Assembly: GCF_000981765.1 (NCBI RefSeq)
Contig: NZ_CP010975.1
Coordinates: 496,001 to 560,000, forward strand
Direction: 5' to 3'
Length of the DNA stretch: 64,000 nt
DNA from: Kangiella geojedonensis
GTDB lineage: Bacteria; Pseudomonadota; Gammaproteobacteria; Enterobacterales; Kangiellaceae
Within the stretch, counting starts at the first letter, position 1. Every line of letters starts with the position of its first letter. Under the pieces are notes generated by a model. The model ran no database searches. It had not been told where the DNA came from and was given only the letters and a program-made list of their open reading frames with translations. The position numbers were made by a program, and so were the translations under genes. This document shows positions 28,062-47,394 of this stretch, piece after piece.

Positions 28062-28579
28062 TGTGACAAGTAATTAATAATATTGAGTAGTTCGACCTCG
28101 ATAGGTTCTGAGGTACTTTCTACAATGCGTCCCATCTCTTCTTGGTTTTGATACACAATAATCGTTGGTGTGTACTCAACCCCCGCTTTTTTTGCTAATC
28201 CTTGGCTGTCCGATTTATTCCTATCTAAAGCGATTAGCTGCAATTGTATATTAGGGTTATTTAATTGCTTTTTGAGTTTGATCAAGTTTGGAATTTCGCG
28301 TTGACTATCATGGCACCAGGTACCAAAGAAAGCGATGATTTGTGTTGGCGTGGTAACGGCATTCAACTGTGCAACTGCAGAACTGTCTAAGTCGTTATGG
28401 CGCTTCACGGAAAATATCGGATAACTGTTTTGCAGTTCATCGATGGTAATGGGGCCTGCAGCATCCATGTGTTGCTCAAAGCGGCTTGTTGAGTGGTCGC
28501 TGTGTGGGTTGGCTGAGTTTGTTTTGCAGGCTGATAAAGCAATAGCCACAATCATAAGTAGTGTTAATTTTGAGGTCAT
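28058..28579 (-). CDS. Thioredoxin-like lipoprotein with a CxxS site
   Basis: A 173-residue exported protein with lipobox ALSAC (Cys 18) and a thioredoxin fold (TQIIAFFGTWCHDSQREIPNLIKLKKQL, then YTPTIIVYQNQEEMGRIVES with the cis-Pro in TPT). The usual CxxC is WCHDS, lacking the second Cys, so it may act as an isomerase, chaperone or thiol sensor rather than a full oxidoreductase. Its ATG overlaps the stop of the PanE-MsrB gene (ATGA), so the two are translationally coupled. Confidence 0.75.
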   Translation of the reverse strand: MTSKLTLLMIVAIALSACKTNSANPHSDHSTSRFEQHMDAAGPITIDELQNSYPIFSVKRHNDLDSSAVAQLNAVTTPTQIIAFFGTWCHDSQREIPNLIKLKKQLNNPNIQLQLIALDRNKSDSQGLAKKAGVEYTPTIIVYQNQEEMGRIVESTSEPIEVELLNIINYLSH

Positions 28580-29841
28580 GATTTTTCCTGTTCGAATTGT
28601 AAGCTAACTGAGTTGACACAAAAGCGTTGGCCGGTTTCGGTCGGGCCATCATCAAAGATGTGGCCAAGATGAGAGCCGCATTGGGCACAAAGAATTTCTG
28701 TACGGCTCATGCCATGGCTGTCATCTGCTCGATAAGCAATGGCTTTATTATCTTGAGCTCGATCAAAGCTAGGCCAGCCACAGCCTGAATCAAATTTGGA
28801 GTCATCTTTAAATAATGGCGATTCGCAACAGACGCAATGATAAGTGCCCTGCTCATGATGTAGGTTGTAAGAGCCTGAAAAAGGAGGCTCGGTCCCTTGC
28901 TGTTGTGTGACATGAAACGTTGCGGGATCAAGGTTGTTAATGTTTGCCTGAGCTAACTGCTTTAAAGGCGGGTAGGCGATATGGAATTCACTCCAAAGTC
29001 TCCAGTTATGAGGAACGGGAATATCATACTTTGAGGCTTGATCGAGCAAGTAGCCGTTAATAGAATTAATTTCGGTCAAGTTTCCCTTAAGGACATCTTG
29101 CAACATTGATGATTGATTGTTCGCGGTTGCTTCGATGACGGTGATGATTGTTTCTTTTAGGGGCGCATCAAGGTTAATAGCTAAAGTATCTGCTAAACGC
29201 TGGTTTTCATTAATTAAAGCTAAAACCTTAGGCCACTTGTCGCTATCAAGCAATTCTCCGTTTTTGCACTGATAAATCGAGGTTAATGGATTGACCACTG
29301 CGTTAATGGATAGCTTCTGCCAAAGGATGTTGTTAATACTAGGGTGCCACTCGGCATTTAGCGCATCACAGATCTGCTGGGTAAGAAACTCCGGTTTTGA
29401 ATCGCTTTCTAGGTGACCAAAGGTTATCTTGCCTTGTCCTGCGTAGTGAACGGCTTGCTTGGCTTTGATATAGGCACCGTGGGTGTTACTGGCAAAATAG
29501 AGTTGTTGAGGCTGGATATACCTCAAAGCAATTTTCTCATGGCCCATACCGTTTTGGAAAAGTACGACATTAGTACTGTCGGTAATCGCATGTGAGATAC
29601 TATCTAAAGCAGCTTCGAGCTGATGAGATTTAACACAGACCCAAACTTGCCATAATTCATCACAATCTTGAGCCGCTACAGCAGGGATTTCATGATAGAT
29701 TTGATGTTCTTGGTGGGTTAGACACCACTCTGAGCTGTATTGAGCATCAGCTTTGACAATAAGCTGGCAATCAATGGAAGCTTCGGTTAGTTTATGGGCT
29801 AGTAACTGGCCTATGGCGCCTGCACCAAGAATCGTAATCAT
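28576..29841 (-). CDS. Fused ketopantoate reductase (PanE) and methionine-R-sulfoxide reductase (MsrB)
   Basis: One uninterrupted 421-residue frame carries two enzymes. Residues 1 to about 285 are a PanE/ApbA reductase: Rossmann start MITILGAGAIGQLLAHKL, CVKSHQ, the catalytic-lysine region WQKLSINAVVNPLT, and the C-terminal LKGNLTEINSINGYLLDQA. Residues about 304-421 are a complete MsrB: FHVTQQQGTEPPFSG, zinc cysteines in CVCC and CAQC, GCGWPSF, SHGMSRTE, and catalytic Cys 408 in RFCVNSVSL. A short linker joins them. No stop or internal start separates the domains. No Shine-Dalgarno is seen before ATG 29841, which is 38 bases from the divergent ampG-like gene. Confidence 0.85.
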   Translation of the reverse strand: MITILGAGAIGQLLAHKLTEASIDCQLIVKADAQYSSEWCLTHQEHQIYHEIPAVAAQDCDELWQVWVCVKSHQLEAALDSISHAITDSTNVVLFQNGMGHEKIALRYIQPQQLYFASNTHGAYIKAKQAVHYAGQGKITFGHLESDSKPEFLTQQICDALNAEWHPSINNILWQKLSINAVVNPLTSIYQCKNGELLDSDKWPKVLALINENQRLADTLAINLDAPLKETIITVIEATANNQSSMLQDVLKGNLTEINSINGYLLDQASKYDIPVPHNWRLWSEFHIAYPPLKQLAQANINNLDPATFHVTQQQGTEPPFSGSYNLHHEQGTYHCVCCESPLFKDDSKFDSGCGWPSFDRAQDNKAIAYRADDSHGMSRTEILCAQCGSHLGHIFDDGPTETGQRFCVNSVSLQFEQEKS

Positions 29842-35728: not shown

Positions 35729-36961
35729 TTATCGTGCTAGCCGTAGCAAGGTGTTCAGTAAAACTTGTGTGCCTTTCTCCACGTCATCCCAGTGCGACCA
35801 CTCATCTGGAGCATGACTGACGCCGCCAACACTAGGAATAAATATTAAACCTGTTGGTGTTAGATCGGTAAAGAACTGGATGTCGTGACCTGCACCGCTG
35901 GGCATTTTCATGTAAGAATAATCCAGCGCCTTAACTTCTTCCTCAATGAGGTCTACCACTTCAGGGCTAAAGTATTTAGGCTCTAACCAGCTCATTTGTT
36001 CATACTCAAAGTACAGCTTATGTTTGCGAGCAATAGAGGAAAGTACTTTACGGCAACTATTAGCCAATTGATGCATGATATCTTCCTGCATATCTCGACC
36101 AACAATGGTGAAGTGAGCTTCGCCAGGAATGGTATGAGCATAACCGGGTTTTAAGTCAACACGCCCAATCGTTAGACGGCTTTTGTCGGTGCCTTCTTCA
36201 TCAATAATTCGACTGATTTCGTGAGCAAAATCTGCCAAACCCATGAAAGCATCACTACGCATATCCATAGGCGCCGTTCCTGCATGATCCGCTTTTCCTT
36301 TAAGCTTAACTAACCACTTAAAGACACCAGAAATACCGTCAACAACACCGATACATTTGTGGGAATTTTCGAGTACAGGTCCTTGTTCAATGTGCAACTC
36401 CAGGAATGCTTTCATACTTGAGGGATCGCGACGAGCACGCAGAGTTTCATGAATATTTAATCCACACTTTTCGAGAGCATCTTTTAAGTATTCCCCTTTA
36501 GGATCGCGTGCTTTCTCTAACCAGTCTAGGGTTAAGTGACCACTTAAAGCTTGCGCCCCAAGCATGCCACCAAAGCGTCCTTCTTCTTCACTGGTGCCAA
36601 TAATTTCTATGGGGCAATTAACGTCAATATTGTTTTCTTGAATAACGCGGATACATTCTAAACCAGCGATAACACCAAGGGTGCCATCAAACATACCGCC
36701 AGCGGGTACTGAATCGAGGTGGGAACCTATTAAAATAGCGGGTTTGTCTGGATCGCCAAATCGTCCACAAACATTTCCTGCACCGTCCATGTGTGTTGTG
36801 AGACCGCAGCTTTTAAACTTCTCCATCATCCATTGCCGGGCCTGCATATCAATGTCGGTTAACCCTTGGCGGTAAATGCCTTTGTCTTTTTCATTGAAAC
36901 CAAACTTTGATAACTCGTATAAATCATTTTCTATTCGTTCAATATTGATTTGAGTGATAAT
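35729..36961 (-). CDS. M20 hydantoinase/carbamoylase family amidase, probable ATT start
   Basis: Zinc hydrolase of the N-carbamoyl-L-amino-acid hydrolase / allantoate amidohydrolase family. Seen: GSHLDSVPAGGMFDG (metal His and Asp), TSEEEGRFGG (acidic pair), LELHIEQGPVLE, DHAGTAPMDMR, SGAGHDIQFF and the C-terminal GVSHAPDEWS. The first ATG (36847) would cut off the conserved RQGLTDIDMQAR segment. The frame stays open and family-like for 38 codons further, to an ATT at 36961 with AAGG 5 bases upstream; no ATG, GTG or TTG lies between. An in-frame TGA lies further up. With that start the protein is 410 residues, normal for the family. It diverges from the symporter/carbamoyltransferase operon. 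Confidence 0.82.
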   Translation of the reverse strand: MITQINIERIENDLYELSKFGFNEKDKGIYRQGLTDIDMQARQWMMEKFKSCGLTTHMDGAGNVCGRFGDPDKPAILIGSHLDSVPAGGMFDGTLGVIAGLECIRVIQENNIDVNCPIEIIGTSEEEGRFGGMLGAQALSGHLTLDWLEKARDPKGEYLKDALEKCGLNIHETLRARRDPSSMKAFLELHIEQGPVLENSHKCIGVVDGISGVFKWLVKLKGKADHAGTAPMDMRSDAFMGLADFAHEISRIIDEEGTDKSRLTIGRVDLKPGYAHTIPGEAHFTIVGRDMQEDIMHQLANSCRKVLSSIARKHKLYFEYEQMSWLEPKYFSPEVVDLIEEEVKALDYSYMKMPSGAGHDIQFFTDLTPTGLIFIPSVGGVSHAPDEWSHWDDVEKGTQVLLNTLLRLAR

Positions 36962-37010
36962 GATCGCCTTAATTAATGTGAGTCATGTCTAAAATATATA
37001 CCTTAATTAT

Positions 37011-37091
37011 AACCTTAGATCTACCGGTTTGATTTGATTTCAAAGCTTTGCTAAGGTGGGTTGTCTTTCGCAGAGACATCAACCTTAGGTT
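37011..37091. promoter_or_regulatory. Repeated CCTTAG/CTAAGG motif in a divergent promoter region
   Basis: AACCTTAG occurs at 37011 and 37081, and CTAAGGT, its inverse, at 37051. The 37081 copy is part of an 11-base palindrome AACCTTAGGTT that abuts the ATG at 37092. The spacing and placement between two divergent genes suggest a regulator site. No known family is recognised. Confidence 0.3.
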
Positions 37092-37658
37092 ATGACCCAA
37101 TACATGGTATCGGTCTTCTTGTTCCTGCTAATGGTTAGTAGCGGGGCAATAGGTAGCGAGTGTGGTGAGCGGCAATGCGCATTAGATTTGCAACTTAAAG
37201 AAGGCAAGGATGAGGTAATGACATCGGGCCACTTTAATTTAATTTGGCCAGTTAAAGATGAGTCGACCACTTCAGAAGAAAAAGAGTCTGATGGTGACAG
37301 GGAAGATGAATCTTCTGCGATTGAACACTCTACGATAAAAGCTACTTTAGTCGATTTCGAGAAGCATTCCGCAACTCAGTTAAAAATTTCTTCTGACCAA
37401 TTTTTTTCACATATCAGCCACACCATAAATATTCATCCAACGCAACGCGCGGTGAGCCTTACGGGCTTTTCTGATGGTGATTATTATGCGCAATTATATG
37501 ATGCGAGTAATAATCCTGTAAGTAACGCGGTTATGGTAACGGTAGAGCATCACTCAATGTTTAAAGTTTGGGTGATTTTCACTTCTGGAGCTGCACTTTT
37601 TTTAATTCTTATTGGCTATATGGTGACTAAAGTCTTCCGTCATAAAGAAGAAGCATAA
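37092..37658 (+). CDS. Exported membrane-anchored protein of unknown function
   Basis: A 188-residue protein not recognised as any family. It has a signal peptide (about 1-22, MVSVFLFLLMVSSGAIGS), a two-Cys stretch (CGERQC) and an acidic low-complexity segment (EEKESDGDREDESS). A probable beta-rich periplasmic domain follows (about 80-155, ending SLTGFSDGDYYAQLYDASNNPVS), then a C-terminal membrane helix (VWVIFTSGAALFLILIGYMV) with a basic tail. The domain topology is type I. It ends 2 bases before the symporter gene, so it is very likely co-translated with it and may deliver substrate or act as an accessory. Confidence 0.65.
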   Translation: MTQYMVSVFLFLLMVSSGAIGSECGERQCALDLQLKEGKDEVMTSGHFNLIWPVKDESTTSEEKESDGDREDESSAIEHSTIKATLVDFEKHSATQLKISSDQFFSHISHTINIHPTQRAVSLTGFSDGDYYAQLYDASNNPVSNAVMVTVEHHSMFKVWVIFTSGAALFLILIGYMVTKVFRHKEEA

Positions 37659-37660
37659 TT

Positions 37661-39088
37661 ATGGACTATAACCCGATCTCGATTACAACGGCATTAATGT
37701 TATTGGTTCTTTTTGGAATCGTATGGATTTTCTTTGGCTGGTGGTTAGGTCGGAAAAATAAATCTCTTGATGATTTTATGCTTGCTGGTCGTAATGTTGG
37801 CTTAGCTTTTGCTGGCGCAACTGCGATGGCGACATGGATTACCAGTAATACAACCTTGGTTGCTCCGCAGCTAACCTATGAGTTAGGTATTTGGGGAATG
37901 GTTGGTTACTCACTAGCAGCGCTAGGACTTATTTTATTTGCGCCGATGGCAAAGCGCATTAAAGAGCTGATGCCACAAGGATATACCTGTGGTGACTTTA
38001 TTCGCGTACGTTACGGTAAAACGGCGTGGATTGCCTTTTTAGTCGTTTCATTTTGTTATGCCATGGGTTGGTTAGTCAGTCTTGGCATGGCTGGTGGCGT
38101 CTTACTCGATACCTTGAGTGGCTTAAGCTACAACGTCGGTATGACGGTCATTCTCGTTATCTGCGTGGGTTATACCTTACTTGGTGGTCTTAAGGCGGTA
38201 ATTGCAACGGACTATGTTCAAACCATTATTATCATTGTTGGCGTTTTGATTATCGGTTTTGTGTGTTATCAAACCGTCGGCTTTGATCGGGTTTATGAAT
38301 TTAATAAAGAACACCATCCTGAGTTGTTGAACCTGCTGTTCCCTGCGGCGATGATGTTCCTCTTTAATAATATATTTTTTGGCTTAGGCGAAATATTTCA
38401 TTCGAATGTCTGGTGGTCTCGTGCGCTGGCCTTTAGACTAGGGATCGGTAAAAAAGCGTACTTGATGTCTGGTTTATTATGGTTACCCATTCCTATCGTT
38501 ACCGGCTTTATTGCATTATCAGCACCAGTACTCGGTTTATATCCTGATTCGAGTGATATGGTTGGCCCAATGGTGGCTGCTAATTTACTGGGAGACATAG
38601 GCGCAATTTTTGTCTTTATTGTAGTGTTTTCCGCACTGGCATCGAGTTTAGACTCACTGCTGGCGGCAACCAGTGATTTAGTCACGCGTGATATTTATAA
38701 CGGCTTAATTGATAAAAGTGCAAGCAAAGAGAAATTACATCGAATCAGCAAGCTGGTTATTTTAGGTTTGGGTTTTGTGACGTGGCTGATTTGTTTGCCG
38801 AAAATAACTACGTTAGGCGCGTTACTCAATTTCACAGGTGCCTTTGTAGCCAGCACGATTTGGCCGATTGTTTTAGGATTATATCAGCGCCGTCTATCCG
38901 GTGACTTCGTCACGGCTGCGTTAGTCTTAGGTACTATCAGTGGCTTGATTGGTTATCACACGATCGGCTTTTATGTGGCAGCCCTGTTTAGTTGTATTGT
39001 GTCTTTCCTGATTTGTATGATTGGCCTGTTAGTTAAAAATGATAACTTTGATTGGCAGCGCCTGAAAAATATGGAGAAACCACAATGA
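37661..39088 (+). CDS. Sodium:solute symporter (SSS family)
   Basis: A 475-residue transporter with about thirteen helices. SSS features include the early WLGRKNKSLDDFMLAGRNVGLAFAGATAMATWIT, GMVGYSLAALGLILFAPMAKRI, the LLGGLKAVIATDYVQ signature, and SALASSLDSLLAATSDLVTRDIY (helix 8, sodium-site serines). It imports an unknown organic solute with sodium. Its stop codon overlaps the start of the next small gene (ATGA). The downstream enzymes suggest a nitrogen-rich substrate, which is inference. Confidence 0.9.
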   Translation: MDYNPISITTALMLLVLFGIVWIFFGWWLGRKNKSLDDFMLAGRNVGLAFAGATAMATWITSNTTLVAPQLTYELGIWGMVGYSLAALGLILFAPMAKRIKELMPQGYTCGDFIRVRYGKTAWIAFLVVSFCYAMGWLVSLGMAGGVLLDTLSGLSYNVGMTVILVICVGYTLLGGLKAVIATDYVQTIIIIVGVLIIGFVCYQTVGFDRVYEFNKEHHPELLNLLFPAAMMFLFNNIFFGLGEIFHSNVWWSRALAFRLGIGKKAYLMSGLLWLPIPIVTGFIALSAPVLGLYPDSSDMVGPMVAANLLGDIGAIFVFIVVFSALASSLDSLLAATSDLVTRDIYNGLIDKSASKEKLHRISKLVILGLGFVTWLICLPKITTLGALLNFTGAFVASTIWPIVLGLYQRRLSGDFVTAALVLGTISGLIGYHTIGFYVAALFSCIVSFLICMIGLLVKNDNFDWQRLKNMEKPQ

Positions 39089-39207
39089 TAATTTCTCTAG
39101 AAGCATTAGAAACATTAGTACTGACGGCAATGGCAGTGACCTGTTTGTCGCCAGTGATTTTAATTATTTTATTGATCAAGGATTGGATAAAGGATGAATT
39201 ATGGTGA
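39085..39207 (+). CDS. 40-residue membrane protein, probable symporter accessory subunit
   Basis: A complete small frame overlaps the symporter stop by 4 bases (ATGA) and the next gene start by 7 bases. The product begins MIISLEALETLVLTAMAV, forms one membrane helix (about 10-31) and ends with a charged amphipathic tail KDWIKDELW. The tight two-sided coupling is strong evidence that it is translated. Short proteins encoded beside SSS symporters are known as small accessory proteins; assignment to that group is by context and shape. Confidence 0.7.
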   Translation: MIISLEALETLVLTAMAVTCLSPVILIILLIKDWIKDELW

Positions 39208-40271
39208 ACCCAATGGTTGATGACAGCATGAAGTTTTCACGCGTAAAACCGGATGTTTTTGGTGATGCGCATCCAAAGGCTTTATTGAAGCGGATTCAAG
39301 AAGATGGTGACAAATTACAAGTATTAGCAAACCAACACATTGTTTCTGTTGAACAGTTTGAAGCGGATACTATTCTGCAATTATTCCGACTTGCTAGTAA
39401 GTATGAAAGCAATCCTTTGCGCTTTAGCGACCCCCTTAAAGGTAAAATTCTGATCAGTGCATTTTATGAACCAAGTACCAGAACGCGCCTGTCCTTTGAA
39501 AGTGCATGGCACCGTCTAGGCGGTGACATTATGTCGATCACCGACCGTGCAACAACCGGTATTGCGAAAGGGGAGTCTTTAGCTGACGTTGGTGAAATGT
39601 TTAACAACTATGGCGACTGTGTTGTTCTTCGGGAATCAAACGAAGATTCAGTGACGGAGATGACGTCGACACTGCGTATTCCGATCATTAATGCCGGTAA
39701 CGGTACGCGTGAGCATCCAACACAAGCGATGGCTGATCTCTATACAATTTTTAAATGGAAGCCTGAGTTGTTAGAGAATAATGGCACCAAAATAAAAATT
39801 GCTGTTATCGGGGTTCCTAGTTTTATGCGGACTGTGCGAAGCTTATTAAAACTTTTCGCACTATTTCCTGATATTTTTTCCGAAGTTGTTCTGGTTCATG
39901 ACAGTGATGAGACTGAAATATTTACCCCAGGTCAGCGAGAGAAGTTAGAAGCTAAAGGATTGAACTTGACCATTAGTCGAACTCTTGATGATATTTTGCC
40001 GACGTTAGATGTGGTCTATATTAATGCCATTGCTTGGGTTGGTGATTCTTATGAGGAGCATGGAACTAAGTTTAAACTCGATAAAAACTCACCGTTAAAA
40101 GAAGATGCGATCATTCTTCATCCGTTAGCTCGAGGTGATGAGCTATCAACTGACTTGGATGAAACCCCTCATAACTGGTACTTTTCACAAGCTCGTGGCG
40201 CTGTTTTTTTAAGAATGGCGTTGTTGACTTGTATGGTTGAACGAACGGAGCGAGTGCTCGACGTCGTTTAA
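39201..40271 (+). CDS. Aspartate/ornithine carbamoyltransferase family enzyme, substrate uncertain
   Basis: A 356-residue transcarbamoylase. The carbamoyl-phosphate site is intact: EPSTRTRLSFESA, the KGE of the 80s-loop (GIAKGESLADV), and HPTQAMADLY. The C-terminal HPLARGDELSTDLDETPHNWYFSQARGAVFLRMALL is close to aspartate carbamoyltransferase, with Ala replacing Pro in HPLPR. In the 230s-240s loop the MTRVQKER-type motif that binds aspartate is replaced by INAIAWVGDSYEEHG, so the acceptor amino group substrate may differ. The N-terminus is also about 40 residues longer. AAGGA lies 6 bases before the ATG. It is in an operon with the symporter and AsnB. Confidence 0.8.
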   Translation: MVNPMVDDSMKFSRVKPDVFGDAHPKALLKRIQEDGDKLQVLANQHIVSVEQFEADTILQLFRLASKYESNPLRFSDPLKGKILISAFYEPSTRTRLSFESAWHRLGGDIMSITDRATTGIAKGESLADVGEMFNNYGDCVVLRESNEDSVTEMTSTLRIPIINAGNGTREHPTQAMADLYTIFKWKPELLENNGTKIKIAVIGVPSFMRTVRSLLKLFALFPDIFSEVVLVHDSDETEIFTPGQREKLEAKGLNLTISRTLDDILPTLDVVYINAIAWVGDSYEEHGTKFKLDKNSPLKEDAIILHPLARGDELSTDLDETPHNWYFSQARGAVFLRMALLTCMVERTERVLDVV

Positions 40272-40325
40272 ATTGGCAACAGAATTACCTTATTATTTTA
40301 ACTTAAATCCGAGGAGATTTAGTGT

Positions 40326-42338
40326 ATGTGCGGAATCGCGGGTGTTATACACAGTGATAAGAACCGAGCAATAGATTCGCAAACGTTAGTTAATATGGCA
40401 GCGATTCAATACCATCGTGGCCCAGATAACTTCGGTTATCATAACCCTCAAGGCGCTGGTGTGGGCTTAAGTCACGCTCGCCTGACAATTATTGATTTAG
40501 ATGAAGAGCGTGGTCGTCAGCCTCATGTCAGCGATGATGGACGATACATGATGGTACATAATGGTGAGTTTTACGATTTTCAGCGTATTCGTGCGTCGAT
40601 GACAGCACAAGGTGCGCGCTTTCAGAGTAAGAGTGACTCTGAGTTAGTGTTGCAAATGTATCCTCATTACGGTATCGAGAAGACGGTAGAGAATTTGCGC
40701 GGTGAATTTGCTTTCTCTATTTATGATCGTGAAGAAGAAACCATGTATTTGGTACGCGATCGTTTTGGTATTAAACCACTGTACTGGACCGAAACTGAGC
40801 ATGGCGTGGTCTTCGGCTCGGAATTAAAAGTGTTATTCGCACATCCTGATGTCAAAAGAGAGATTGACTCTGAAGGACTCTATCATCAATTAATTCAAGT
40901 GATGGTTCCAGGTTCAACAGCGTTTAAAGGGGTTAATCAGGTTCCTCCAGGCCACTGGATAAAGATTCAACGTAAAGACGGCAAGTTACATATTGAACAG
41001 CATAAATACTGGGATATAGACTTCCCACAGGCGGAAGAGCACCTCAAGGTTAAAGAAGAAGAAGAGTATATTGAGGGAGTACGCGAACAATTGTTGGAAG
41101 CCGTACATTTGCGCTTGAATGCCGATGTGCCGGTGGGTGCTTACTTATCAGGCGGAATCGATTCTTGTTCAATCTTGGGCTTATCCGCATCAGTGAGTCA
41201 AGATCCTGTTAAAGCCTTCACGATTGGCTTCGATGATGCCGATTACGATGAAACGCCTATCGCTACTGAGATGGCGGAGATGACAGGTGCTGAACAAATC
41301 ATTTTGCCGTTATCGGCAGAGCATCTTTATGATCATTTTGAGCGAACCATTTGGCATACGGAACGGACTATCTACAACACCTTAGGCGTAGCGAAGTTAT
41401 TGATGAGTCAAAAGGTGCGTGAGCAGGGTTACAAAGTGGTGCTGACGGGTGAGGGCAGTGATGAATTGTTTGCTGGGTATCCCGCGTTTAGAAAAGATAT
41501 GTTCCTTTATGGGTTATCAGACCTACCTGATAATTTAAGAAACGATTTACAGTCAACTCTAGCTGAGTCAAATGAGTTGTTCAAAGGCGCCATGTTGCCA
41601 AGAGAGGAGTTTAAGTCTGAAGCTATTGATCAAAAAGTCGGCTTTACACCCACTTGTATCCAAAGTTGGATGGGGTGCGACAATTTTGCTCGAGATTTGA
41701 TGACTCAAGAGCATCACGAAACTATTAAAGACTACGACCCAGGCACCGCAATGGCTGAACAGTTTGATGAAACCCAACTAGAAGGTCGTCACCCGCTTGA
41801 TAAAGCGCAGTATGTTTGGATTAAGACCATGTTAGAGGGGCAAATTTTAACATGGGGAGGTGACCGAGTGGATATGGCCAACTCCATGGAAGCACGGCCA
41901 CCGTTTTTGGATCATCATCTGGCGGCCTATGCTGTCAATATTCCTCCACAGATGCGGATTAAAGGCCCAGTGGAAAAGTACGTGCTGAAAGAGGCGATGA
42001 AAGGACTGCTCCCTGAAACCCTATATAAGCGGCAAAAGTTTGCATTCATGGCGCCTCCAGCGCATACCGATGAGAAGAAATGGAGCGCATTGATGGAGTT
42101 GATGGAGGAGTTTGCGAATAAAGAAAAGATTAAAGAAGCCGGGTTGATTGACTATGATGCATTACAAGCCATGCTTCGCAGTCATGACGATCCAAGTGTC
42201 TCCAGAGATCATAAAGTTCAGATGGATGCGATCTTGAATCATGTCTTAGGAGTTCAGCTACTTCACCATCACTTTGTTAAACAAGACATTCCCAAAAGAG
42301 CCGCGGCAAAAGCCCACGAACTGGGTTGGGCTGCTTAA
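40326..42338 (+). CDS. Glutamine-hydrolysing asparagine synthetase family protein (AsnB type)
   Basis: A 670-residue amidotransferase. The N-terminal Ntn glutaminase starts at Cys 2 (MCGIAGV) with YHRGPDNFG, LSHARLTIIDL and NGEFYDF. The synthetase domain has the PP-loop SGGIDS, FTIGFDDADYDET, and LTGEGSDELFAGYP. It could make asparagine or amidate another carboxylate; many AsnB homologues in gene clusters do the latter. GAGGAG lies upstream of the ATG. It follows the carbamoyltransferase by 54 bases and precedes a terminator, so it is the last gene of the operon. Confidence 0.88.
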   Translation: MCGIAGVIHSDKNRAIDSQTLVNMAAIQYHRGPDNFGYHNPQGAGVGLSHARLTIIDLDEERGRQPHVSDDGRYMMVHNGEFYDFQRIRASMTAQGARFQSKSDSELVLQMYPHYGIEKTVENLRGEFAFSIYDREEETMYLVRDRFGIKPLYWTETEHGVVFGSELKVLFAHPDVKREIDSEGLYHQLIQVMVPGSTAFKGVNQVPPGHWIKIQRKDGKLHIEQHKYWDIDFPQAEEHLKVKEEEEYIEGVREQLLEAVHLRLNADVPVGAYLSGGIDSCSILGLSASVSQDPVKAFTIGFDDADYDETPIATEMAEMTGAEQIILPLSAEHLYDHFERTIWHTERTIYNTLGVAKLLMSQKVREQGYKVVLTGEGSDELFAGYPAFRKDMFLYGLSDLPDNLRNDLQSTLAESNELFKGAMLPREEFKSEAIDQKVGFTPTCIQSWMGCDNFARDLMTQEHHETIKDYDPGTAMAEQFDETQLEGRHPLDKAQYVWIKTMLEGQILTWGGDRVDMANSMEARPPFLDHHLAAYAVNIPPQMRIKGPVEKYVLKEAMKGLLPETLYKRQKFAFMAPPAHTDEKKWSALMELMEEFANKEKIKEAGLIDYDALQAMLRSHDDPSVSRDHKVQMDAILNHVLGVQLLHHHFVKQDIPKRAAAKAHELGWAA

Positions 42339-42346
42339 ACCTTCTT

Positions 42347-42379
42347 GTTACGTCCTAAATTTTAGGGCGTAACTTTTCT
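42347..42379 (+). terminator. Terminator of the symporter-asnB operon
   Basis: GTTACGTCCTAAA pairs with TTTAGGGCGTAAC (one G-T pair), followed by TTTTCTCTTCTT. Confidence 0.75.
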
Positions 42380-42574: not shown

Positions 42575-43060
42575 ATGCATATTACTCGATATACGGATTA
42601 CTCACTTCGTGTATTAATTTACCTTTCGTTGAATACTGAAAAACGTTCAACGATCAAAGATATTGCAGATAGTTACGGCATTTCTAAAAATCACTTAATG
42701 AAAGTTGTCCATAATCTCAATAAGTGCGGCTATATTGAAACATTGCGTGGTAAAAAAGGCGGGATGCGATTAAGTAAAAAACCAGAGAATATTAATGTCG
42801 GAAAATTGGTTTTAGAGTTAGAGCCTGACTTTAATCTTGTGGAATGTTTTTCTCACAATGGAAACTGCGCAATTACACCTGTCTGTGAATTAAAGTCTAT
42901 TCTAGGCTCGGCGCTTAGCGAATTTATTAAGAAACTCAGTGAGTACACACTTGCCGATGTGATTGTTAAAGGTGATGAAGGGAAAGCTGCGGAAATCCTT
43001 GGCTTATCCCTCGATAACGATAGTGATGGTAAAGTGATACCTATTAGCAATGTTGGCTAA
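42575..43060 (+). CDS. nsrR: Rrf2 family regulator, NsrR-like
   Basis: A 161-residue iron-sulfur repressor. The winged helix is at the N-terminus (MHITRYTDYSLRVLIYLSLN, then IKDIADSYGISKNHLMKVVHNLNKCGYIETLRGKKGGMRLSK). Three cysteines, C91, C98 and C104 (VECFSHNGNC, TPVC), are placed as in NsrR/IscR proteins. NsrR senses nitric oxide and represses NO-detoxifying genes, none of which are adjacent. A possible promoter ends in TATACT about 80 bases upstream. I could not find a convincing NsrR palindrome in the gap 42380-42574. Confidence 0.8.
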   Translation: MHITRYTDYSLRVLIYLSLNTEKRSTIKDIADSYGISKNHLMKVVHNLNKCGYIETLRGKKGGMRLSKKPENINVGKLVLELEPDFNLVECFSHNGNCAITPVCELKSILGSALSEFIKKLSEYTLADVIVKGDEGKAAEILGLSLDNDSDGKVIPISNVG

Positions 43061-43072
43061 TTAACCGTTAAG

Positions 43073-44179
43073 TTAAACTCTCTGCCACACCCACATAAGT
43101 CCTAGCGCCAATATAGCGACAGAAATTAATGGCACAGAAATCTTTCTGACTTTTTCCTTTTTGTTGAGTAACCATAGAAATGGTATGGCCGCGAGTATGA
43201 TCGCAACTTGACCAATTTCAACTCCTAAATTAAACCCTATGATGCTGGTTAACTGATGGCTTTTACTTAAACCCAGTTCAGTTAGTGCGCCTGCAAACCC
43301 CAGTCCGTGCAATAAACCAAATGCTACAGTCATGAGCATGAGTTGCTTGACCCAGTGAGTCATCACGTTAAGTGCAGAATAAGCTACAGAAATGGCGATC
43401 CCAACTTCTGCCCACTTTGAAGGAATGGATATCCAACCTAATGAAGTCAAGGTTAGGGTAATAGAGTGTGCTATTGTGAAGCCTGTTATGAGCCAAATCA
43501 TGGACTTTAATTTTACTGGGCTTATTGGCTTAGCATCGTTACTCAGCGGTTTGATAGGCTTGTTCACAAAATGCAGGAGGAGAGTCAGCACGAATAAAAT
43601 ATGATCAAGACCTATCCAGATATGAATCATGCCTTGGTACAAATAAAACAAAAACGTATCCCAAGCTGACTGTGTTCCGCTTGTTAACTGCCAAGGCTGG
43701 TTTGGACCATCAATAATAGTTTGTGCTTGCCCTGTCTCGACCTGCCAGTTAAGTAGTAGTTTATGATCAGAGGTTGTGTCAAATAGCGCAGAATAATTAA
43801 CATTGATAGGCGTAGGACATTGCAGCGTTAATGGCTGCTTCAATAGGGTTTCCCCATAGCTATCCATCAAAGCAATATCGAAACCCCACTCAGGCTCGCA
43901 GGCTTGATCACCTGATGAAAATACTAAATGGTCACTTAAGTAGTCGGTCACTTTTGAATGGCTTTGATTAAGTTCTTGCCACGTGAGTTCCCCATCATTT
44001 TTACTATCTAGGTTTAACGTGTGATGTAAGTCGCTAACAGAAACAGCAATGTAACCCACGTGTACATCTTGTGAATACTGCTTAAGAGTCAGGTTTGCTG
44101 TGCTGAATTCATGAGCTTGTAATGACGTTGCAAAAAACGTTGCAAGTAACAGTAATCCTAAAAGTAGTAGGTTGCGCAT
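43073..44179 (-). CDS. HupE/UreJ family membrane protein with EF-hand-like loop
   Basis: A 368-residue protein. A signal peptide ends at LQA-HEFS. A periplasmic N-terminal domain (about 22-170) contains a 12-residue EF-hand-like loop DSKNDGELTWQE. Then come about six helices with the HupE_UreJ_2 signature YLYQGMIHIWIGLDHILFVLTLLL and GLLHGLGFAGAL. HupE/UreJ proteins are linked to nickel or cobalt uptake; the His-rich helices (H-x-W, LDHI, LLHG) suit metal. It is the last gene of the DUF4331 operon. GAGGGA lies just before the ATG. Confidence 0.8.
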   Translation of the reverse strand: MRNLLLLGLLLLATFFATSLQAHEFSTANLTLKQYSQDVHVGYIAVSVSDLHHTLNLDSKNDGELTWQELNQSHSKVTDYLSDHLVFSSGDQACEPEWGFDIALMDSYGETLLKQPLTLQCPTPINVNYSALFDTTSDHKLLLNWQVETGQAQTIIDGPNQPWQLTSGTQSAWDTFLFYLYQGMIHIWIGLDHILFVLTLLLHFVNKPIKPLSNDAKPISPVKLKSMIWLITGFTIAHSITLTLTSLGWISIPSKWAEVGIAISVAYSALNVMTHWVKQLMLMTVAFGLLHGLGFAGALTELGLSKSHQLTSIIGFNLGVEIGQVAIILAAIPFLWLLNKKEKVRKISVPLISVAILALGLMWVWQRV

Positions 44180-44192
44180 ATATCCCTCATTG

Positions 44193-45284
44193 TTAGAGTT
44201 TTTGTGCTTGTTCCAGTAACGCCTTATCAGCAGGTTCTTTGACGTGATTCCAATTCCGATGAGCCCACTGTTGGGCTAATTCAGAATTTGGAGAAACATA
44301 AGTGTAGTAATAAGCTATGTCTGCGGCATGTAACTGATCGTTTCTTAATATTCTTAGCTCAATCTTTTTATGGATTAAGCTTTGAAAGTGATCGCCTTTT
44401 GAGGCTAACTTTTCTGCTCTAGCCAAGCGGACCAAGAGCCCATCCTCTAAGTTTGACTGGTGTTTTTGTGCCAGTTGGTTGAGCTTTTGATATACGCTAT
44501 GTTCAGATTTATTTTCGAAAGCCATGTCCGCCCATTGATACCATTGGCTGACAGGTGCTTCATTTAATTCAAAACTAAAGCTAGATTCGGCATCGCTGTA
44601 ATTTTTATTGATGCGGTGCATCGTCCCTTTAATCTGATGATAGAAACGGGTTAAAGGAGTATCGGTAGAGTCATAGCGCTTCGCTAAACGCTTTATTGAT
44701 GATGTGACAGTATCAATTTTTTCTTGATGTACTTTTACTTCTATTAAGCATAGTTCACTAGCAGCAATATTATGCGATAGCAATTGTCGACACTGACTGT
44801 CAGCCAGGTCGAGTTTATTTTGAATGATATACACTCGAGCTGCTACCAATAAACTCTGAGGGTAATAAATGCTGCTTTCATCAATCTGCTCTAACAACAA
44901 TATTGTCCGTTCGAATTGATGGTCGCTTTGTGCGATATTTGCTTTTATTAGGTAATACTGGTTGGCTTGCGAGCTAGTCAGTTCCTCTGTTTTAACAGGA
45001 GCTATTAATTTTTTTGCAGTAATAAGTTTGTTACTGTTGCCGGGGTACTTAGAGCGCTCTATGTGTTCACTGACCGTATCAAGAAGAGAGGACACATCTT
45101 GCTCAGAAGCTATTGAAATATCATTACGATTGGTTGGTTTATTAAAATCCTTGACGTCATATTCAAGAATAACGTCTGATGATTTATTAGGGATCCATTC
45201 TTTCGCAACATTCTTAGAAGGAAAAGAACACATCAGCAGCGTAATCGCTGCTGATGTGAGTAGTTTAAGTTTATTGTTCGCCAT
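44193..45284 (-). CDS. Exported helical-repeat (TPR-like) protein, unknown
   Basis: A 363-residue protein. The N-terminus MANNKLKLLTSAAITLLMCSF is signal-like. The body consists of helix pairs with TPR-type spacing (ANIAQSDHQFERTILLLEQI, SQCRQLLSHNIAASEL, HQIKGTMHRINKNYSDAESSF). The ATG at 45284 is chosen: it lies inside the last codons of the upstream lipoprotein gene, giving a 14-base overlap and coupling. The frame stays open to 45365 but that stretch overlaps the upstream gene further. It is encoded just before the HupE-like gene and may assemble with it. Confidence 0.65.
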   Translation of the reverse strand: MANNKLKLLTSAAITLLMCSFPSKNVAKEWIPNKSSDVILEYDVKDFNKPTNRNDISIASEQDVSSLLDTVSEHIERSKYPGNSNKLITAKKLIAPVKTEELTSSQANQYYLIKANIAQSDHQFERTILLLEQIDESSIYYPQSLLVAARVYIIQNKLDLADSQCRQLLSHNIAASELCLIEVKVHQEKIDTVTSSIKRLAKRYDSTDTPLTRFYHQIKGTMHRINKNYSDAESSFSFELNEAPVSQWYQWADMAFENKSEHSVYQKLNQLAQKHQSNLEDGLLVRLARAEKLASKGDHFQSLIHKKIELRILRNDQLHAADIAYYYTYVSPNSELAQQWAHRNWNHVKEPADKALLEQAQKL

Positions 45285-45783
45285 CTTGAACCAAGTCCTG
45301 ATAAGTATCAGTTGTGGTAACGTCGAATATAAACTCTCGCCCATTGACACCAGATGGTTCATCACCTGGTTGTTTTTGATAGGCTTCTCGACTGTAAGAG
45401 CTAAACACTTCCTGCTTGACGTTTACAGTAATATCTACTTCAGTAGTTGCACTGTTAGACTGACCGTCGGTCGCAATAAAAGTGAATACATCTGCTCCGG
45501 TGAACTCGCTGTCAGGCGTATAAGTAAAGCTGCCATCATTGCTAAGTTCTACAGTACCAGATTGCGGATCATTAATGATAACGAAGCTTAAAGCATCACC
45601 ATCAGGATCTTCCGCTTGCAGTTCATCCATGACCGGTGTATCTGTTTCGGTCATGATTGAAAGCTTGCTGGCTACAGGCGCCTGATTCATGTCAGGAGCC
45701 CCGTCATCGTCGTCGCTACAAGCCGCTAAGGCTAGAGCGGAGGAGACGATTGCCAGATACTTGAATGTTTTCAAAGTATTCAT
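45271..45783 (-). CDS. Cadherin/Ig-like domain lipoprotein
   Basis: A 170-residue exported lipoprotein with lipobox ALAAC followed by an acidic DDDDGAPDMNQAP linker. One bacterial cadherin-like domain (about 35-125) has the typical ED-PDGDALSF and DGSFTYTPDSEFTGADVFTFIATDGQ pattern with calcium-type Asp residues. The C-terminus (about 130-170) is polar. AGGAG lies 6 bases before the ATG. It sits between the DUF4331 gene and the repeat protein, with short gaps, in one operon. Confidence 0.75.
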   Translation of the reverse strand: MNTLKTFKYLAIVSSALALAACSDDDDGAPDMNQAPVASKLSIMTETDTPVMDELQAEDPDGDALSFVIINDPQSGTVELSNDGSFTYTPDSEFTGADVFTFIATDGQSNSATTEVDITVNVKQEVFSSYSREAYQKQPGDEPSGVNGREFIFDVTTTDTYQDLVQDGEQ

Positions 45784-45798
45784 GAATGACTCCTATGA

Positions 45799-47394
45799 TT
45801 AGTTAGGTGAACCAGCTAGTGGAGTTTTTAAGTATGGGAAGCTCTCGTCCACATCATCTGCTGATAAAGGCGCACCGTCTGTAAATGGCGCATTACCGAC
45901 ATTAGCATCTGATGGTGAGCAGTAGCCTAGATTGGTTGGAGTACCATTGACTGGAAACTCATAACACAACCGACCCATTACAACACGTAGAGCAATATCC
46001 ACCACGTCATCACCCGGACGACGTCCGTTAGGGAAGCCTGCTAGGTCATCACCAACGACACCATAAGGTGATTGTTGTGATGCTGGAACCGCTGGAATGG
46101 CAGTATTAAGACGTAGCATCTCAGATGGCGTAACAGTTGCTTGTTGGTTAACACCTGGGAAACCTGTTAGGAAGGTTGCCAATAGATCTTCCCTTGGGAA
46201 GTTTGTTGGCGCAATTGTCTCAAAGTTAGTCCCAAGAGTGTTGTTAACCGCATCTTTAAACAAGATGTTTAGTAACTCGGGGAAACTTGGGTGAGTGACA
46301 TAATCAGCAAACTGACCGTCACCACTTGGAGCGGTAGTAGAGAACTTGTCTTTATCAGGAAGTCCAATAACCACTTCGTTCACAAGAGGGTTACTCAAAC
46401 GTGAAATCTGTACCATAGCACCGCCGTTAACTTCAGGCTTCTCAAACGTAGCGTTTGGATTCTGAATACGGGCTTGTGGGACATAAGCCGTGGTCCAAGC
46501 ACCGATAACACCGTTACCATTACCGACTAAGCAGCTTTTGGGTAGTTCTAGTGCAATGGTAGTGACGTTCTTGTCACGAAGATCATCGTTAGCTGTATCT
46601 TGAGTGATACCGCCAGGGAAACCATTACCATCGCCAGCACCTGGAGAGCTATCACCTTCAACTGGGACATAGTTTACTAAGTCAAAACTTTCGCCTAGAT
46701 TGACTGCGAAAGCGTCAGAACGTTGACCGACGAAAGCTTTACCTGTTTGTGAACAGTTCGGTACGCTAATGTCGTATACGTACTGATCAGCGTAAGCTTG
46801 GTAGTCAGCGGCAGATGAAAAGGTTTTATCACCAATATAATCCCAAGGCTTGGTGAATGTAGTTTCACCGCCTGCTGCAGTAACCGAAGTTTTAGTACCT
46901 GAATTAACCGGACCTTCAACGAGGTTAATGCTGTACTGTTCGATAAAGTTAAGTACAGAGCTATCGCCTGCTGAAATGCCACCAGCATTTTTAAGTGGAA
47001 TAGCAATCTGTTTTTTGTCGCCATCCGGACCGATAGCGAGCTGGATACCAGCACCGTCAGCGGCTAAGTTATTATCAAATTTAAACTGGAACGTTAAGTC
47101 TTCGACCGCATCACCATCACTATCAACATGAATGTTATAATTGGCTGCTGGGTCTAAAGCAAAGTAATTCGGGCCGCCGTAAGCGTCCTGAAGTGGAACA
47201 TAGTTTGCGATTAACGTAACATAGTCCGCACGACCTGATTCGTAGCTATTAAAAACATAAAAATCGGTAGAATCAAGTGTCGGGTAGCGTGTAATGTTTG
47301 GTGCTTCGCGGTGACTTGAAGCGACCGCATCCTGTGCTATATAAGCGGTGGTTAAGCATAAGCAAACCGCGCTTGTTATAATGTGCTTCTTCAT
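45799..47394 (-). CDS. DUF4331 domain protein, exported
   Basis: A 531-residue secreted protein. A signal peptide is cleaved near DAVA-SSHREAP. The SSHREAPNITRYPTLDSTDFYVFNSYE start is the hallmark of DUF4331, and the rest is Gly/Asp-rich beta structure with HVDSDGDAVEDL and GQFADYVTHPSFPELLNILF. DUF4331 has no established activity. It is the first gene of a four-gene operon ending in the HupE-like protein and divides a 285-base promoter region with a TonB-dependent receptor. GAGG lies 8 bases before the ATG. Confidence 0.85.
   Translation of the reverse strand: MKKHIITSAVCLCLTTAYIAQDAVASSHREAPNITRYPTLDSTDFYVFNSYESGRADYVTLIANYVPLQDAYGGPNYFALDPAANYNIHVDSDGDAVEDLTFQFKFDNNLAADGAGIQLAIGPDGDKKQIAIPLKNAGGISAGDSSVLNFIEQYSINLVEGPVNSGTKTSVTAAGGETTFTKPWDYIGDKTFSSAADYQAYADQYVYDISVPNCSQTGKAFVGQRSDAFAVNLGESFDLVNYVPVEGDSSPGAGDGNGFPGGITQDTANDDLRDKNVTTIALELPKSCLVGNGNGVIGAWTTAYVPQARIQNPNATFEKPEVNGGAMVQISRLSNPLVNEVVIGLPDKDKFSTTAPSGDGQFADYVTHPSFPELLNILFKDAVNNTLGTNFETIAPTNFPREDLLATFLTGFPGVNQQATVTPSEMLRLNTAIPAVPASQQSPYGVVGDDLAGFPNGRRPGDDVVDIALRVVMGRLCYEFPVNGTPTNLGYCSPSDANVGNAPFTDGAPLSADDVDESFPYLKTPLAGSPN

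Follow-up and report, generated by a model that had tools for sequence, protein, structure and literature searches.

We report that a compact operon in a 64,000-nucleotide stretch of the Kangiella geojedonensis genome (NZ_CP010975.1, positions 496,001 to 560,000; hereafter the window) probably makes, recaptures and degrades an uncharged salt protectant built from an amino acid. The operon encodes, in order, an anchored exported protein, a sodium:solute symporter of the SSS family, a 40-residue membrane protein, a carbamoyltransferase (CT) resembling aspartate carbamoyltransferase (ATCase) and an AsnB-type glutamine-dependent amidotransferase, and it diverges from a gene of the M20 hydantoinase/carbamoylase family (Table 1). 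We consider an uncharged osmolyte of the carbamoyl amino acid amide class the likely product, and lean modestly towards carbamoyl-glutamine amide (CGA) as the compound itself; the joint proposal that the operon makes CGA and that CGA is a common yet overlooked marine osmolyte is tentative, its chances falling just short of even. Gene order, co-occurrence, active-site changes and neighbours come from computation, while substrate, product, direction and regulation are what we infer.

The carbamoyltransferase and its amidotransferase partner

Numbered by alignment to E. coli PyrB, all 103 members of the CT clade retain Ser52, Thr53, Arg54, Thr55, Lys84, Arg105, His134, Gln137, Arg167, His265, Pro266, Leu267 and Arg296, the first eight of which, together with Ser80, make up what we take to be the carbamoyl-phosphate site of PyrB. 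Arg229 and Gln231, which we take from ATCase structures to bind the side-chain carboxylate of aspartate, are retained in all seven PyrB controls and replaced throughout the CT clade: position 229 is Ala in 83 members, Ser in 18 and Thr in 2, and position 231 is Ala in 68, Ser in 33, Val in 1 and Thr in 1. Lys232 has become Trp and Pro268 has become Ala in 103/103. In ATCase, Arg167 touches aspartate and His170 is described as important for activity (PMC6981877). Because Arg167 is retained and Arg229 and Gln231 are gone, we infer that CT works as an active carbamoyltransferase on an alpha-amino acid that bears a non-acidic and, by prediction, uncharged side chain.

CT is like PyrB in its fold family, in most of the carbamoyl-phosphate site and in Arg167, but unlike it in the loss of Arg229 and Gln231, in the changes of Ser80 to Gly, Lys232 to Trp and Pro268 to Ala, in forming a clade of its own and in being only 35% identical to the PyrB of its own genome. 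That PyrB is encoded elsewhere (L002) and carries the aspartate motif TRVQ; a third carbamoyltransferase adjoins an argG-like gene (L001). Against the PyrB equivalog model TIGR00670, CT scores 206.4 bits, under the cut-off of 236.95, and in the tree its clade stands separate from PyrB, with very long branches to PyrB and 15 of 44 inner branches unresolved. With PyrB encoded elsewhere and the pocket changed, we rejected the housekeeping PyrB as the identity of CT.

A further ATCase-like paralogue, 42% identical to CT (L129 in G336, L130 in G185 and L131 in G257), was excluded from the CT clade counts. Its phosphate and catalytic residues are altered (for example, position 54 is His rather than Arg in two of the three, and position 265 is Asn rather than His in all three), no AsnB gene lies within the stretch examined around it, and its neighbours are common to no more than two close genomes.

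The AsnB-type protein starts with MCGIAG, which carries the glutaminase Cys2, and has a PF00733 synthase domain; in both respects, and in passing the TIGR01536 cut-off, it resembles asparagine synthetase AsnB. It differs in length (670 residues versus 553 in the E. coli enzyme, 1ct9), in sharing its genome with AsnA (L106) and in having CT as a constant partner. When used as a query against the genome it recovered, apart from its own gene, only a weak match to its N-terminal part within a 615-residue frame; judged by sequence, it is the sole AsnB of the window genome, in which GatB was not found. Because AsnA is present, AsnB is not needed for asparagine, and this led us to reject a housekeeping AsnB. 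The amidotransferase of the N-acetylglutaminylglutamine amide (NAGGN) pathway and that of the XrtA system were rejected as identities too, as the protein scores 327.6 bits against TIGR03104 (cut-off 570.1) and 420 bits against TIGR03108 (cut-off 817).

The original prediction, a model's reading of the letters of the window, had assigned these enzyme classes and had them add or remove carbamoyl and amide groups, which we judge right. It had also allowed that the two enzymes might simply be the sole housekeeping PyrB and AsnB of the genome; with PyrB, the third carbamoyltransferase and AsnA all encoded elsewhere, this is not the case.

Distribution, gene order and osmotic context

CT and its AsnB-type partner occur in identical sets of genomes. 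In the neighbourhood of the window genus, the CT clade is present in 15 of 41 genomes at no less than 71% identity, the next matches reaching 38% at most, and the AsnB clade is held by the same 15. In an even draw of 370 Gammaproteobacteria genomes, CT has matches at E<=1e-60 in 25; G185 and G336 hold only the 42% paralogue, and the other 23 are exactly the genomes that hold the AsnB clade. The original prediction had called for such a survey of co-occurrence and had named a gene order confined to one strain as what would count against it. Gene order was compared in 102 loci, namely the best 80 of 220 CT relatives in a one-genome-per-species collection (the named loci) and 22 loci from the class draw; L061 and L132 lie on the same contig, leaving 101 places. 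AsnB lies directly 3' of CT in 80/80 named loci and the symporter gene directly 5' of CT in 79/80, so the order is not limited to one strain, and its distribution across relatives and class led us to reject a one-strain curiosity. A small open reading frame (ORF) ending in W separates symporter and CT in 75/80 of them, and the anchored protein is found in 72/80. M20 is within reach in 39/80; of the 41 without it, 34 are titled Idiomarinaceae. The class loci, 22 in number, usually run in the order anchored protein, M20, an isochorismatase-type hydrolase, symporter, small protein, CT and AsnB, all on one strand, with M20 present in 22, the isochorismatase-type gene in 21, AsnB next to CT in 21, the symporter in 19 and the anchored protein in 12. 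Contig ends truncate two loci (L032 and L047), and L142 failed the gap limit for AsnB, its AsnB match being partial.

Among the best 80 of 220 CT relatives are members of Kangiella, Pleionea, Aliikangiella, Idiomarina, Pseudidiomarina, Aliidiomarina, Alteromonas, Bowmanella, Pseudoalteromonas and Thalassotalea, as well as Nitrosomonas halophila, Kordiimonas, Cyanobium, Synechococcus and others, most of which, we assume, come from marine or saline habitats. No CT copy was found on plasmids at E<=1e-50. The operon is patchily distributed within the window genus, and it seems to come and go as a whole.

Some loci adjoin genes for known compatible solutes. In a Synechococcus locus (L101), the operon adjoins two genes of glycine-betaine methyltransferase type, a GSMT that passes its cut-off and an SDMT-like one that does not (312 bits, cut-off 550); choline/betaine-type ABC transporter genes lie 5' of these; the other flank carries a mannosyl-3-phosphoglycerate phosphatase (over cut-off) together with sucrose-phosphorylase-like and glucosyl-3-phosphoglycerate-synthase-like genes, both under cut-off. 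In a second locus (L152), a BCCT transporter lies 3' of AsnB together with a GSMT that passes its cut-off and an SDMT-like gene, and a third (L149) has a GSMT-like gene, assigned by clustering only. An MscS channel gene lies 9 bp 3' of AsnB in L133 and some 1.6 kb 3' of it in L134; a member of the same cluster lies on the other strand in L058. Taken as a whole, the L101 stretch (L101:1020-17059), with its genes for betaine-type synthesis and transport, the CT-AsnB operon, a DUF1028 protein and glucosylglycerate-type genes, looks like a compatible-solute island.

A gene for a MarR-type regulator adjoins the first operon gene or M20 in L034, L035, L052, L097 and L104, in varying positions. In Idiomarinaceae, a MarR gene lies some 2.5-6 kb 3' of AsnB, in shared synteny to which we give little weight. 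Kin of this regulator are found in 38 plasmid records, of which four were examined (two of them without annotation in the stretch): one adjoins ectA-ectB and proVWX in Vibrio nigripulchritudo (50% identity) and one adjoins ectA, ectB and ectoine synthase in Leisingera (41% identity). EctR/CosR occupies the same position beside ectoine genes, according to a review (PMC7876524). The published CosR consensus is TTTGA-NN-TCTAA (PMC8070244). Allowing one mismatch, it occurs in 12 of 85 operon upstreams against a shuffle mean of 3.2, and in 11/85 when set against 14 of 749 control upstreams. A symmetric palindrome within one mismatch of TTTGANNTCAAA lies no more than 200 bp 5' of the first gene in 14/85 operons versus 10/749 controls (Fisher 4e-9); this pattern was chosen after a first look, so that the p-value is exploratory and uncorrected for kinship, and the controls are upstreams of predicted ORFs in the same loci, some perhaps false. 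The window has a perfect palindrome between its divergent genes (Table 1). An EctR/CosR-kind MarR repressor probably controls the divergent promoter. The operon is like the ectoine and betaine operons governed by EctR/CosR in having a related MarR gene near some loci and a similar palindrome in some upstreams, but unlike them it is without ectABC or bet genes. The osmotic context (betaine genes, MscS, an EctR/CosR-like regulator and operator, each in some loci) and the lost aspartate side-chain residues are not part of the original prediction.

Each of the two synthetic steps may have a reversing partner, M20 for CT and the isochorismatase-type hydrolase for AsnB, and two opposed pairs of steps fit a solute that is to be built up and taken down. 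The genes for these hydrolases lie side by side in 21/22 class loci. The isochorismatase-type protein (PF00857, 102 bits) counts N-carbamoylsarcosine amidohydrolase and biuret hydrolase among its solved kin (E 1e-8 to 1e-10) and could remove the amide that the AsnB-type enzyme adds. That M20 acts in the opposite sense to CT had been proposed from the window alone, and we agree. In both cyanobacterial loci, a DUF1028 protein adjoins M20 in place of the isochorismatase-type hydrolase (L098:11139-11861 and L101:12449-13228) and is a candidate for the amide-removing partner.

Predicted product and competing readings

In the proposed pathway, CT would move a carbamoyl group from carbamoyl phosphate onto the alpha-amino group of L-glutamine, and the AsnB-type enzyme would then activate the alpha-carboxylate by adenylation and convert it to an amide with nitrogen from glutamine, so that the resulting solute bears no charge. 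That Arg167 is retained hints at carbamoylation as the earlier of the two steps. The Na+ symporter, with the 40-residue protein and the beta-domain protein as partners, would recapture leaked or external solute. Upon down-shock, breakdown would run in reverse, with an amidase (the isochorismatase-type enzyme in distant loci) taking the amide and M20 the carbamoyl group, and a MarR repressor of the EctR/CosR kind would act on the divergent promoter.

CGA synthesis from L-glutamine and carbamoyl phosphate, followed by amidation, needs a carbamoyltransferase without an acidic pocket and an amidotransferase, and the operon fits this need. CGA is a known solute (PMC1224877, PMC3857566), and its known producer is Ectothiorhodospira marismortui/mobilis. 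A genome survey of phototrophs speaks of CGA as more widespread among purple sulfur bacteria, with no genes named in the passages on it (PMC7824335). Within the open-licence PMC literature we found no description of CGA biosynthesis genes, nor of this operon or gene set, in line with the original prediction, which knew of no named pathway with these genes; passages of papers on Spiribacter and Halomonas elongata mention carbamoyl only in other contexts. Ectothiorhodospira is not among the best 80 of 220 CT relatives. Photosynthetic reaction-centre genes occur in 2 of 24 operon-bearing class genomes (G130 and G321) and in 6/370 of the class draw, and the operon is found in 0/48 genomes of the family of one phototroph (28/48 at least 90% complete).

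A close parallel is the NAGGN operon asnO-ngg (PA3459-PA3461, with the MarR regulator PA3458), in which an AsnB-like enzyme forms the terminal amide of a glutamine-based osmolyte (PMC8070244). By our prediction, the two systems share AsnB-like terminal amidation of an uncharged glutamine-derived osmolyte, a partner enzyme that caps the alpha-amino group, a hydrolase in the operon and a MarR-type repressor (here encoded near some of the loci). Here, however, the partner is an ATCase-like carbamoyltransferase instead of a GNAT/peptide-forming enzyme, the predicted product holds a single amino acid rather than a dipeptide, the AsnB-type protein falls under the NAGGN cut-off, and a Na+ symporter and a carbamoylase are linked. 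No Ngg-type partner was found among the adjacent window genes scanned, the rest of the genome not having been searched for one.

Several observations weigh against CGA as the product, or against the osmotic role more broadly. CT has Ser80 changed to Gly and His170 to Arg in 103/103, and K164 is also changed, so that catalysis is not assured. The operon is absent from 8 of 20 same-genus genomes (among them G002, only 55% complete). The isochorismatase-type gene was not found in the window genome, and among the 41 genomes only G018 has a match above 42%. Betaine genes flank only 3/102 loci, and since the CT tree places L149 and L152 as sisters, these represent two lineages. On the side of regulation, there is no MarR gene in the window, to which the search for one was confined, the exact published CosR consensus has 0 perfect matches in the 85 operon upstreams, and the palindrome variant comes from few lineages, its 14 cases being six Kangiella, three Pleionea, one Aliikangiella, three metagenome-assembled genomes and one Idiomarina. 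CGA itself has been called a solute known so far from one organism only, and minor beside betaine, so that a wide distribution of the operon would mean either that CGA has been overlooked or that the product is different.

The pocket tells only that the acceptor probably has an alpha-carboxylate and a non-acidic side chain, without singling out glutamine. The same logic and osmotic role could therefore apply to another amino acid (for example asparagine, serine, glycine or a doubly amidated glutamate), giving an undescribed solute; we think this unlikely, as CGA is the sole solute of its class that we met in the open-licence literature and the two enzymes correspond to its two unusual groups. 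The direct linkage of the symporter in 79/80 named and 19/22 class loci, and of hydrolases in many, is what would be seen if the operon served scavenging or nitrogen recycling, with an imported amino or ureido compound being remodelled and hydrolysed, or with CT reversed to yield carbamoyl phosphate. We find this improbable: the most constant partner of CT is an amidotransferase of an ATP-consuming type, the symporter is missing from four loci (L103, L133, L135 and L148), no M20 is within reach in 41/80 named loci, and the annotated neighbours are osmotic, though only part of the flanks is annotated. Import had been the entry point of the pathway in the original prediction, and the symporter is indeed linked in 98/102 loci; because CT and AsnB occur without it in 4/102, synthesis from internal precursors looks central, and import as the entry is not favoured. 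That the AsnB-type enzyme amidates a cell-wall, exopolysaccharide or peptide product decorated by CT, in the style of XrtA-linked or peptidoglycan AsnB enzymes, is very improbable, for although such roles exist and TIGR03108 gives 420 bits, this is far under the cut-off of 817, and the recurrent flank clusters examined give no hint of envelope or peptide synthesis.

If CGA synthesis by this operon is correct, it would identify the genes behind a compatible solute first reported in 1991 and show a relative of aspartate carbamoyltransferase recruited to osmoadaptation. A carbamoyltransferase and an AsnB paralogue, both likely to be misread as housekeeping, would acquire a function, solute-carrying bacteria would become predictable, and a nitrogen-rich organic pool in seawater would be indicated.

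Layout of the locus and start of the M20 gene

The window belongs to a genome of 2.495 Mb in a single contig, whose closest named relatives are Kangiella. All six genes of the original prediction are present and placed as it described, and the tight packing that it reported is borne out: a 2-bp gap separates the anchored protein from the symporter, and the ORF of the 40-residue protein overlaps the symporter gene by 4 bases and CT by 7, after which a 54-bp gap precedes AsnB. The terminator-like hairpin 3' of the operon proves little alone, as the hairpin scan counted 10 sites of this kind where shuffled sequence gives 5.3 on average.

Table 1. Features of the operon and its surroundings. Positions are those of the window; bit scores are given with the model cut-off
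Feature	Position	Strand	Remarks
M20 hydantoinase/carbamoylase-family amidohydrolase (predicted N-carbamoyl-amino-acid hydrolase)	35729..36958	-	409 aa; probable ATC start at 36958, first in-frame ATG at 36847
Palindrome TTTGATTTCAAA	37033..37044		form TTTGA-NN-TCAAA, perfect; between the divergent genes, 59 bp 5' of the first operon start codon
Anchored exported protein	37092..37658	+	188 aa; N-terminal signal-like helix, predicted FN3/Ig-like beta domain, C-terminal membrane helix
SSS-family sodium:solute symporter	37661..39088	+	475 aa; PF00474, 97.9 bits (cut-off 22.8)
One-helix membrane protein	39085..39207	+	40 residues, C-terminal LW
ATCase-like carbamoyltransferase (CT)	39201..40271	+	356 aa; PF02729 and PF00185; altered acceptor pocket
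AsnB-type glutamine-dependent amidotransferase	40326..42338	+	670 aa; TIGR01536, 442.2 bits (cut-off 267.1)
Terminator-like hairpin	42347..42373	+	12 pairs; 3' of the operon; hairpin scan

The anchored exported protein matched no Pfam or NCBIfam family in a profile scan. Its AlphaFold model (mean pLDDT 77.8) consists of strands and a C-terminal helix at 156-187, and with this model Foldseek returned weak matches, none at E<=0.001, led by HC7 chains (8pn5) and followed by many FN3 modules. The symporter scores 141 bits against TIGR00813, under the cut-off of 184, and the 40-residue protein is possibly an accessory subunit of it.

Scanned from its internal ATG, the M20 protein passes the cut-offs of NF006771 (493 bits, cut-off 399) and TIGR01879 (323.7, cut-off 204), and its closest solved structure is the N-carbamoyl-L-amino acid hydrolase 3n5f. 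These matches place it with the N-carbamoyl-L-amino acid hydrolases and allantoate amidohydrolases, while the equivalog cut-offs of ErtE (N-carbamyl-L-glutamate hydrolase; 352.4 bits, cut-off 520) and AllC are not reached.

The M20 gene probably starts at a non-canonical AUC or AUU codon, 37 codons upstream of the first ATG. The frame continues open 5' of that ATG, and the N-terminus encoded by the 37 extra codons is conserved without ATG, GTG or TTG in seven Kangiella sequences, those of the window and of the named loci L026-L031. The candidate start codon is ATC in six of these seven sequences and ATT in one, preceded in the seven by an AAGG or GGAGG site some 7-8 nt upstream. Between the ATC/ATT codon and the internal ATG position, the relatives show 6-16 synonymous and 1-8 other differences from the window. 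Speaking against the ATC start, the frame of L027 is open further upstream, with TTG codons at 58 and 71, and a TTG or GTG lies immediately 5' of the internal ATG position in L027 and L030. A weak start codon would keep the degradative enzyme at a low level.

Elsewhere in the window, one frame (28576-29841, minus strand) fuses a ketopantoate-reductase-like (ApbA) domain to a SelR methionine sulfoxide reductase domain, and positions 42575-47394 encode in series an NsrR-like Rrf2 regulator, a HupE/UreJ-like membrane protein, an unknown protein and a DUF4331 protein.

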